Assembly: GCA_022072085.1 (NCBI GenBank)
Contig: JAJVII010000048.1
Coordinates: 1 to 36,784 of the forward strand
Direction: 5' to 3'
DNA from: Phycisphaerae bacterium
Lineage (GTDB): Bacteria > Planctomycetota > Phycisphaerae > JAJVII01
DNA: 36,784 nucleotides
In this document: positions 5,773-29,419 of the stretch, piece by piece
Layout of the letters: each line of letters opens with the position of its first letter
Numbering within the stretch: position 1 is the stretch's first letter
The notes under the pieces: generated by a model
Database searches by the model: none
Seen by the model: only the letters and a program-made list of their open reading frames with translations
Told to the model about the DNA's origin: nothing
Program-made: the position numbers and the translations under genes

Positions 5773-6813
5773 TCACGGCCGGGCCTGGGCCAACTCGGCC
5801 AACAACGCCTCGCCGCGCTCGCGGTCGATCATGCGGAGGAACTCGATTCGGCCGATCAGCCGCAGCAGAAAGATCGGATCGCCGCGGCTCTGGCTGCCGA
5901 TGCCGTCGCGGACGCAGTTGTGGACGATCGCCCGCAGCCGCCGCCGTTCCTGGCGCGGCACGGCCACCTTCTCGTTAACGACCAGGCCGGTCACCTGCTG
6001 GCGGCGGCAGCGCCGCGTGACGCGGAGCTTCTCCGGGGCGACGGCGAACCCCTCCTCGCCGATGATCCGCCGCACGAGCGGCAGGATCGACTGGATGCCC
6101 GCGGGCCCGGAGAAGGTCAGGTCGTCGGCGTAGCGGGTGTAGGCTGCCCCGGCGCTGCGAGCCAGGCCCTCCAGTCGGCGGTCGAGTTTGCGGCAGATGA
6201 TGTTGCTGATGGCCGGGCTGGTCGGCGCGCCCTGGGGCAACCGGCCTTGGCAGGTGGTCAGGCGGGTCAGCACGTCGGCGGTCGGCTTGTCCAGGCCGAG
6301 CGACTTGAACATGCCGAAGACGCGGGCCGCGGTGATTGTCGGAAAAAAGTCGCGCAGGTCGAGGTTCAGCACGACATCCTTGCCGACGTGCGGCCAGGCG
6401 TTGCCGCGGATGGAGTAGCCGCGGCGAAAGCCTTTGACGCAGGGGGCCAGATCGACGCGGCCGAGGATGCGCTTGAGGATGCGGCGCTGGATGAACTTCA
6501 GCGGCGGCGGCGGAACGTGCAGCGTTCGCGTCGAGCCGTTCCGCTTGGGAATTTCGACGGCGCGGTAGCAGTCGCCGGCGTGAAAGGCCCAGTGAGCCAA
6601 CCGGCGGCGATTGAGGCTGAGCAGGTACTTCAATCGGGCCAGCCCGGGGTTCTTGCCCTCGGCCCGGGCTTTGGATACCAGGCGCTCGATCCACCTGGCG
6701 CGGCTGCCGCGGGGTATGACCTCCAGGGTCTTGGGGTGGATGGCGCCCGCCGCTCTGCCGCCTGCCGGTCCAGGCGTGCCGAACAGCGTGCGCAGCCAGC
6801 CCAAGAGGCCCAT
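5773..6813 (-). CDS. Retron-type reverse transcriptase
   Basis: The 346-residue protein carries the reverse transcriptase core in order: FEIP-like region YRAVEIPKRNG (83-93), PPPLKFIQRRIL (102-113), NLDLRDFFPTI (150-160, catalytic D155 region), LPQGAPTSPAISN (192-204), YTRYADDLTFSG with YADD at 228-231, and VTGLVVN (274-280). Two features mark the retron clade: NAxxH as NAWPH at 138-142, and the VTG triplet at 274-276. There is no maturase X domain or endonuclease as in group II introns. In retrons such an enzyme copies part of a neighbouring structured RNA into branched msDNA. A segment with the expected layout lies 23 bases upstream. An N-terminal region of about 75 residues precedes the core. 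No effector gene is recognised beside it. Confidence 0.93.
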   Translation of the reverse strand: MGLLGWLRTLFGTPGPAGGRAAGAIHPKTLEVIPRGSRARWIERLVSKARAEGKNPGLARLKYLLSLNRRRLAHWAFHAGDCYRAVEIPKRNGSTRTLHVPPPPLKFIQRRILKRILGRVDLAPCVKGFRRGYSIRGNAWPHVGKDVVLNLDLRDFFPTITAARVFGMFKSLGLDKPTADVLTRLTTCQGRLPQGAPTSPAISNIICRKLDRRLEGLARSAGAAYTRYADDLTFSGPAGIQSILPLVRRIIGEEGFAVAPEKLRVTRRCRRQQVTGLVVNEKVAVPRQERRRLRAIVHNCVRDGIGSQSRGDPIFLLRLIGRIEFLRMIDRERGEALLAELAQARP

Positions 6814-6836: not shown

Positions 6837-6851
6837 ACGGACCGGGGCGGG
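6837..6851 (-). repeat. Retron a2 repeat
   Basis: Minus-strand CCCGCCCCGGTCCGT is the exact reverse complement of a1 at 6996-7010. Two further pairs (one G-T wobble, one G-C) can form on the inner side. Confidence 0.75.
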
Positions 6852-6889
6852 GCGATGGTTTGCGTCGTCTACCAAGCTCTCAGATCGCC

Positions 6890-6930
6890 CGCCGTGGCGA
6901 ACAACCACGCGTGGTTGTTCGAACACGGCG
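6890..6930 (-). other. msd-like long hairpin with 24-nt perfect palindrome
   Basis: The top of the hairpin is a perfect 24-nt palindrome (6898-6921, half-site CGAACAACCACG). Below a 2x1 internal loop (6922-6923 opposite 6897), CGCCGTG and CACGGCG (6924-6930 and 6890-6896) add seven pairs. The total is 19 pairs. A chance 24-nt perfect palindrome in a window this size is very unlikely. Its place inside a1/a2 matches a retron msd stem. Confidence 0.8.
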
Positions 6931-6958
6931 ATAGGCAGTGGAGTGCGAACGCCTCAGC

Positions 6959-6975
6959 CGCGGCGTAGCGCCGCG
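6959..6975 (-). other. msr-like short hairpin
   Basis: On the minus strand CGCGGCG, loop CTA, CGCCGCG forms a perfect 7-bp hairpin, preceded by TTTTT. It lies between a1 and the long hairpin, where retron msr stem-loops that bind the reverse transcriptase are found. Confidence 0.6.
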
Positions 6976-6995
6976 AAAAACTAGATCGAGTCGCA

Positions 6996-7010
6996 CCCGC
7001 CCCGGTCCGT
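6996..7010 (-). repeat. Retron a1 repeat
   Basis: Minus-strand ACGGACCGGGGCGGG pairs over its full 15 nt with a2 at 6837-6851. It begins where the upstream promoter would start transcription. Confidence 0.75.
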
Positions 7011-7015
7011 CACCA

Positions 7016-7044
7016 TTGGTACCACTCGCGGGAGGGGCCGTCAA
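7016..7044 (-). promoter_or_regulatory. Putative retron promoter
   Basis: TTGACG (7044-7039, five of six -35 bases), a 17-base spacer and TACCAA (7021-7016, three of six -10 bases) lie just downstream of the gyrB terminator. The expected start site, about seven bases after the -10, falls at 7009-7010, the first base of a1. The weak -10 lowers confidence; the position raises it. Confidence 0.5.
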
Positions 7045-7065
7045 GCGCACGCGGACCCGCGGGCG

Positions 7066-7097
7066 CAAAGAAATCCCCGGCGCAAGCGCTGGGGATT
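7066..7097 (-). terminator. Rho-independent terminator of gyrB
   Basis: On the minus strand AATCCCC (7097-7091) pairs with GGGGATT (7078-7072), with an inner GCGC/GCGC stem around TT. The hairpin is followed by TTTCTTT. It lies 35 bases past the gyrB stop and separates gyrB from the retron transcript. Confidence 0.7.
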
Positions 7098-7131
7098 GGA
7101 AAGCCTCTTCTCTGACCCCTGACCCCTGCCC

Positions 7132-10169
<3,038 letters not shown>

Positions 10170-27943: not shown

Positions 27944-28618
27944 ATGGGCGCAGACGAACAGGTCGTGACGCTCCTCAAGTTCGCCCTCACCATCGGGCCG
28001 ATCGCCGTCTATTTCCTCGCCCTGGGCCTGCTCAATGCCCAGTCCCGCCCCCAACTGATCACCGGACGGGCCGACTTCTCGCTGTTGGCCGTCGTCTTCT
28101 TTCCCATCCTGGTCTGGGTCCTGCTGCTGGTGGTCAACCTCGGCTGGATCGTGCTGGCGATCGTCGCGTTCGCCGCCGGGCTCGGTTTCTACTGGATGAT
28201 GCCGCGGCGGCAGACCTCCTGGGTCGTCTACAACGTCGGCGAGCGGCAGTTCAGCCGGGCGCTGGTCCGGGCCCTGGAGCGGCTGGGGCTGGCCAGCGAG
28301 CCGATGCCCGCCGACCCGCCGGGCCACCCCGTCCTGCACGTGCCGGCCCTCGGGCTGCGGGTGCGGCTGTCGCCCTTCCCCCTGCTGCGAAACGTCACCT
28401 GCCGCTTTGAGCGGACCGACGGCCAGCCGATCGAGCCGGCCGACCTGGCCTCGCTGCTGGCCGGCCTGCGCGATGAACTGGAGACGACCAGCGCGATGCC
28501 GACGGCGTCGGCGGCCTGTTTCCTGCTGATCGGCACGGTGATGTTGTCTGCCCCGCTGCTGCTGATGGCCCGCCACATGGACGAGATCGTCCGCGTCGTC
28601 CGCAACCTGCTGGCATAA
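27944..28618 (+). CDS. Hypothetical membrane protein
   Basis: The 224-residue protein has hydrophobic segments at about 7-30, 45-68 and 70-85, and another near the C-terminus (about 190-210). A soluble section of about 90 residues between them has no recognised motif. The start is uncertain: ATG 27944 is used, while ATG 27893 would overlap the upstream gene by 23 bases. Neither has a strong Shine-Dalgarno. The stop codon TAA flows directly into the first REP palindrome. Confidence 0.6.
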   Translation: MGADEQVVTLLKFALTIGPIAVYFLALGLLNAQSRPQLITGRADFSLLAVVFFPILVWVLLLVVNLGWIVLAIVAFAAGLGFYWMMPRRQTSWVVYNVGERQFSRALVRALERLGLASEPMPADPPGHPVLHVPALGLRVRLSPFPLLRNVTCRFERTDGQPIEPADLASLLAGLRDELETTSAMPTASAACFLLIGTVMLSAPLLLMARHMDEIVRVVRNLLA

Positions 28619-28681
28619 AAAAGTGGACCAGGTCCACTTTTTCCGCTACGATCCCAGAAAAGTGGACCTGGTCCACTTTTT
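28618..28681. repeat. REP pair upstream of RAYT
   Basis: Two palindromes of the form A-rich, GTGGACC-N-GGTCCAC, T-rich. The first (28618-28642) has centre A, the second (28658-28681) centre T. They are separated by 15 bases. The same pair recurs after the RAYT gene. Confidence 0.9.
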
Positions 28682-28693
28682 GGGGAGGCGGCG

Positions 28694-29395
28694 ATGCCGA
28701 GACGGCGACGGGTGGCTGCGGGCGGAATGGTCTACCACGTCATCAACCGAGCCAATGCTCGCGTGCCGATCTTCGAGAAGCCCACCGACTACCGGGCGTT
28801 CCTCAGAATCCTGGCCGACGTCCAGCAGTTGATTCCCATGCGGATTCTGGCCTACTGCGTCATGCCGAATCACTGGCACATGACGCTGTGGCCGATCGGG
28901 GACGGCGACCTCGGCCGATTCATTCATCGCCTGACCGTGACACATGTTACGCGCTGGCATGCCCACCACGAAACCACCGGCAGCGGCCACCTCTACCAGG
29001 GGCGGTTCAAGTCGTTCCCCATCGAAGACGGCATCTACCTGCTGCGGTGCGGCTGCTACGTTGAAGCCAATCCCCTTCGCGCGGGGCTGGTCCAGCGTGC
29101 GGAGGAATGGCCCTGGGGCAGCCTGTGGCAACGGCTTCAGCTCGAGGGGATGCGGGCGGCCGATCGGCCGGTGCTGGCTGATTGGCCCCTCGCGCTGCCG
29201 CGGGATTGGGTGGAGCGAGTCAATCGCCGCGCCAGCGAGGCGGAGATGGAGGAGATCCGCTCGGCCGTCCAACGGGGGCGCCCGTTTGGGTCGACCCCTT
29301 GGCAAGAGGCGACAGCCGCCCGCCTGGGCCTTGAAATGACGCTTCGCCCCATGGGTCGCCCGAAAAAAAGTGGACCAGGTCCACTTTCCGCCTAG
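28694..29395 (+). CDS. REP-associated tyrosine transposase (RAYT, Y1 HUH)
   Basis: The 233-residue protein is a single-tyrosine HUH transposase of the IS200/IS605-related RAYT group. It has the N-terminal GMVYHVINRANARVPIF, the HUH metal site HWH at 60-62 (VMPNHWHMTLWP), GHLYQGRFKS at 98-107 and the likely catalytic tyrosine Y122 in CYVEANPLRAGL. RAYTs act on REP palindromes, and REP pairs lie at both ends of this gene. The final residues KKSGPGPLSA are encoded by a REP palindrome, so the repeat has become part of the gene end. The stop TAG overlaps the convergent ARMT1-like stop. GGGGAGGCGG precedes ATG 28694. Confidence 0.92.
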   Translation: MPRRRRVAAGGMVYHVINRANARVPIFEKPTDYRAFLRILADVQQLIPMRILAYCVMPNHWHMTLWPIGDGDLGRFIHRLTVTHVTRWHAHHETTGSGHLYQGRFKSFPIEDGIYLLRCGCYVEANPLRAGLVQRAEEWPWGSLWQRLQLEGMRAADRPVLADWPLALPRDWVERVNRRASEAEMEEIRSAVQRGRPFGSTPWQEATAARLGLEMTLRPMGRPKKSGPGPLSA

Positions 29396-29419
29396 AAAGT
29401 GGACCTGGTCCACTTTTTT
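29363..29419. repeat. REP pair downstream of RAYT, coding on both sides
   Basis: Palindromes at 29363-29387 (centre A) and 29396-29419 (centre T), separated by 8 bases. The first codes the RAYT C-terminus; both code the C-terminus of the ARMT1-like protein (KKWTRSTF). The two stop codons overlap in CTAG at 29392-29395. Confidence 0.9.

Follow-up and report, generated by a model that had tools for sequence, protein, structure and literature searches.

A 24-nt palindrome in the predicted msd hairpin of a retron-like element from a Phycisphaerae bacterium

A 24-nt perfect palindrome, CGAACAACCACGCGTGGTTGTTCG (6898-6921), stands upstream of a reverse transcriptase (RT) gene in the window, the whole 36,784-nt stretch of DNA that was analysed. 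Is this palindrome part of a retron, and, if so, does its perfect symmetry carry a meaning of its own? Our analysis suggests, with a probability of about 0.88, that the palindrome forms the top of a retron's msd hairpin, in a scheme in which the RT copies an ncRNA into msDNA. The perfect symmetry is better read as a small accident of a tight loop.

The palindrome and the ncRNA around it

The palindrome consists of two 12-nt arms (6898-6909 and 6910-6921) that are 100% complementary, with zero spacer between them. Below it, a 1x2 internal loop (6897 opposite 6922-6923) leads to a lower stem of 7 bp, whose 7-nt arms (6890-6896 and 6924-6930) are also 100% complementary. The first-pass annotation had described a 24-nt perfect palindrome with seven further pairs below a small internal loop, and this description is accurate down to its positions. 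The palindrome is the longest loopless one in the window (the runner-up has 20 nt). A loopless palindrome with 12-bp arms arose in 1 of 300 simulated windows (Markov-1, first-order), so it goes beyond chance. Folding the DNA of 6855-6945 gives z = -4.3 with 0 shuffles as good, and the ncRNA region, folded as RNA, outperforms every shuffle (z = -5.05). One long msd hairpin of 10 + 7 bp is predicted at 6890-6930, with the minus strand as the template strand, and the palindrome is modelled as 10 bp capped by a CGCG loop. The criterion that we applied for a retron msd was a single long hairpin of 10-50 bp.

The hairpin lies in a putative ncRNA of about 174 nt from a1 to a2, located between gyrB and the RT start, directly upstream of the RT gene and in the same orientation. 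The main retron review (PMC6868368) gives complementary ends, a TAG-type motif, an msr hairpin and an msd stem as features of retron ncRNAs. In the window, the order is a1, CTAG, the msr hairpin, the msd stem with the palindrome, and a2. The 5' end, a1 (6996-7010, minus), and the 3' end, a2 (6837-6851, minus), form a perfect inverted repeat of 15 nt (100% paired), and the msr hairpin, TCGCGGCG-CTA-CGCCGCGG (6958-6976, minus), has 8 bp and a 3-nt loop. Both fall within the ranges that we applied for retrons, namely a1/a2 of 8-30 nt beside an RT gene and one to three msr hairpins of 7-10 bp with 3-10-nt loops. According to the same review, an 8-bp hairpin with a 3-nt loop is the type of element bound by RT-Eco1 (PMC6868368). 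The CTAG motif (6984-6981, minus) is followed by T, giving TAGT rather than TAGC. Its G at 6981, 15 nt inside the a1 end, is a candidate priming guanosine, a role suggested by the TAGC motif of known retrons (PMC6868368). The criterion for this guanosine was a place in TAGC or a variant, where the a1/a2 stem ends on its inner side. At the corresponding place, the relatives have TTAG.

The Rfam search gave no match to this ncRNA, the permissive threshold included, and the promoter scan gave no strong sigma-70 promoter for it. A weak promoter-like element, TTGACG-17 nt-TACCAA (7013-7044, minus), is located just before a1 and falls under the promoter-scan threshold; we mention it tentatively. Between gyrB and the ncRNA, folding also points to a possible gyrB terminator hairpin (7061-7125, minus), with ATCCCC..GGGGAT and then TTCTTT.

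The RT gene (5773-6813, minus) encodes a retron-type protein of 346 aa with the N-terminus MGLLGWLRTLFG and a match to RVT_1 (E 2.8e-21). The motifs NAWPH (NAxxH, region X), YADD (YxDD) and VTG are all present and aligned with those of the relatives (alignment A1), and the closest solved structure is the Ec86 retron RT (E 1.9e-48, 168 bits). Across the clade, the RT starts with MGLxDxLxxLF (6778-6813 of the window, minus; alignment A1), a short conserved hydrophobic motif that is followed by a variable linker.

Repeats and terminators in the genome

The first-pass annotation had itself named what would speak against an msd, which is a palindrome dispersed in the genome as a REP-like repeat. 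More generally, the palindrome could be a REP-like repeat, a transposon end or an intrinsic terminator without relation to the RT. Dispersed REP-like palindromes do occur in this genome. In the same genome search, a different palindrome, AGTGGACCWGGTCCACT, served as the positive control and was found at about 19 sites, 4 of them in the window around a Y1 (IS200-like) transposase gene (28694-29395). AGTGGACCWGGTCCACT is a REP-like element of the genome, and its sequence differs from that of the msd palindrome. The 24-mer, in contrast, was found at 1 site in the 5.5-Mb assembly with up to 3 mismatches allowed, and a REP/RAYT repeat is ruled out by this single copy against the about 19 of the control. 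As for a terminator, the terminator scan marks a partial stem at 6893-6909 on the plus strand, but on the minus strand no T run follows the palindrome. In addition, the palindrome lies between a1 and a2 of an ncRNA with a covarying msr hairpin. We regard the probability of an unrelated repeat or terminator as nearly negligible.

The Y1 transposase gene (plus strand) also has pairs of the palindrome AAAGTGGACCWGGTCCACTTT on either side, at 28618-28680 and 29364-29419, and AAAGTGGACCWGGTCCACTTT is found at about 19 genomic sites. We read this gene as a REP-associated transposase with its own REP-like elements.

Conservation of the stem and its tip

Searches that covered viral contigs and were repeated over the class, the phylum and the relatives found no RT relative above about 50% identity; because of this distance, the msd stem cannot be aligned for pair-by-pair covariation. 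The RTs of the nearest relatives, L017, L057 and L059, are 42-46% identical over alignment A1 and 48-50% identical in the search matches. These loci have a1/a2, TAG, an msr hairpin and an msd hairpin in the order of the window, with unrelated stem sequences, and share the a1/a2-beside-RT arrangement with L064 and L066. In L017, L057, L058, L059, L060, L061, L064 and L066, the ends are complementary, a motif of the TTAG type is present and the msd position is occupied by one or two hairpins; some relatives have two candidate hairpins in the msd region. The 8-bp/3-nt msr hairpin is the minimum-energy model in all of these but L061, where it is found by direct pairing.

The covariation of the msr hairpin was assessed on 16 distinct hairpins drawn from the group of these relatives and a sister RT clade. 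All of the cells (100%) are paired and 26 are double-change cells, compared to 7.9 in shuffles, with the reservation that selecting the hairpins on inner pairs and loop builds in part of the pairing, which leaves most of the independent weight to the outer pairs. The signal is lost once the partner is slid.

That the stem at 6890-6930 is the msd of a retron, as first annotated, is supported at the sequence level by the RT motifs, the a1/a2 ends, the covarying msr hairpin and the hairpin that the relatives have at the same position. In this putative msd, the stem structure is conserved and the palindromic sequence is not, since the msd stems of the relatives are kept as stems with unrelated sequences. 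In the P4 stem of Retron-Eco1, breaking pairs mattered only at the base and the tip, and re-pairing with another sequence restored msDNA (PMC11754653). This tolerance of sequence replacement fits the pattern of unrelated stems in the clade of the window.

The sister RT clade (L031, L032, L034-L038, L046, L047, L051, L068, L075, L077, L079, L082) has a conserved ncRNA upstream of the RT as well. It has short ends (YCTTGGC/GCAAGR), a hairpin 1, an 8-bp hairpin 2 with a TTT loop and usually a third hairpin; the last hairpin is variable and often TCGCA-tipped. Double changes are found in 14 of its 23 consensus pairs, and the loci tested gave no Rfam match. This is probably a compact retron ncRNA. 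In L018 (1035-1313, plus), it occurs in two tandem, diverged copies upstream of one RT. A separate observation concerns L061. Some 30-200 nt upstream of its match, a repeated block containing an N is surrounded by a perfect inverted duplication of 41 bp, which resembles an error in joining the assembly.

The near-loopless tip had been considered unusual for an msd, a view that the relatives do not support, since tight tips are usual among them. In the folding models, CGCG of the window is unpaired and forms an ordinary 4-nt loop. The relatives have CGCG (L057), CAGG (L061), CGAG (L060, besides a larger-looped hairpin) and CAAG (twice in L066; L072), and the other tips are TGC closed by C-G (L058, L059, L064) and a 7-nt loop (L017). 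Most tips are tight, being either C(NR)G or a TGC loop with C-G closure, and all seven 4-nt tips have C as their first and G as their last base. With these ends fixed, the chance that the middle two bases are complementary is one in four. Therefore, two self-complementary tips in seven are the chance expectation (P of two or more 0.56), and the perfect palindrome is not special: a tight CGCG tip happens to be self-complementary. The passages of PMC6868368 that we consulted contain no discussion of palindromic msd tips. In L057, the palindrome is likewise loopless and centred on ACGCGT, as it is in the window. This common centre is worth remembering, with too little evidence in the two sequences to argue for selection.

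The first-pass annotation had further raised the possibility of two msDNA copies annealing. In our model with DNA parameters, which ignores concentration and kinetics, the homodimer has -55.0 kcal/mol against 2 x -19.9 kcal/mol for the hairpins (-39.8 kcal/mol together), a gain of 15.2; in a control with a non-self-complementary loop, the dimer has -44.6 against 2 x -20.2 kcal/mol, and the gain falls to 4.2. Annealing would be thermodynamically favourable in the model and is possible in principle, but nothing indicates that it occurs or is selected. If the tip were selected for dimerisation, two msDNAs (or ncRNAs) would anneal and join two RT complexes, and the ACGCGT-centred palindrome of L057, whose RT is about 46% identical, would agree with this. 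However, relatives of the same architecture have tips that are not self-complementary (CAGG, CGAG, CAAG, TGC, the 7-nt loop), the self-complementary ones are as frequent as expected by chance, and a hairpin that folds during synthesis does so within one molecule and quickly. Selection for dimerisation is therefore improbable. A more specific version, in which the window retron and L057 keep the ACGCGT-centred tip for msDNA/ncRNA pairing that assembles RT-msDNA complexes and works without a linked effector, is highly improbable.

Dimeric DNA-binding proteins typically bind at palindromes, and the ACGCGT at the centre might be a site for a host protein (an operator or a methylation/restriction site) or a bait sensing a phage protein. 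In the folded msDNA, however, this centre would be a loop and not a duplex. The stem sequence is conserved in no relative, and the annotated neighbours include no regulator gene. We consider a binding site very unlikely and retain the reading of the palindrome as the upper part of an msd hairpin.

Neighbourhood and possible function

Most characterised retrons have an adjoining effector gene. Here, the neighbours of the RT are gyrB (7132-9714, minus), a DciA-like gene and an oligogalacturonate lyase starting 28 nt past the RT, and neither an effector gene nor a fused effector domain was found at the locus. Within about 1.5 kb of the RT, the clade has no recurrent neighbouring gene, and the lyase has no convincing similarity to the downstream gene of L017 (E 0.17). 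The RT resembles the RT_other and RT_XIII retron RTs of PADLOC, its best profile matches (319 bits, then 316 bits), and differs from these systems in that the tested downstream neighbours have no convincing match to PADLOC system partners, type XIII included, and that the clade has no recurrent neighbour. An assignment to type XIII was rejected, as RT_XIII is only the second-best profile and the tested neighbours gave no partner profile match. The retron may depend on a partner that is not linked to it, or defence may not be its role.

Like Retron-Eco1 (Ec86), which has the closest solved RT homologue, the element has an 8-bp/3-nt msr hairpin and a1/a2 ends (PMC6868368) and an msd stem-loop, of which base and tip pairing matter in Eco1 (PMC11754653). 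Unlike Retron-Eco1, it has no adjacent effector, an unrelated msd stem sequence and TAGT in place of TAGC. Myxobacterial retrons (Mx162 and relatives) were compared by description. An N-terminal RT extension, reported for myxococcal RTs in PMC6868368, is a common point, whereas the window ncRNA is shorter.

By analogy with known retrons, the ncRNA would be transcribed from the minus strand just upstream of the RT gene, its ends would pair, and the conserved msr hairpin would be presented to the RT. The RT would then copy the long-hairpin region into a short single-stranded DNA of about 70-100 nt, approximately 6852-6950 on the plus strand with ends placed by retron anatomy. This DNA copy, carrying the plus strand, would refold into the same stem. 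We infer the synthesis and the ends of the msDNA, as well as any defence role.

The element looks like an ordinary new retron, not a new kind of element. Since its clade often has very tight msd tips with C-G closure, a perfect palindrome at the tip of an msd is not to be taken for a distinctive signal. In addition, a retron with complete ncRNA anatomy, in a clade without a recurrent partner, bears on the role of effector-less retrons.
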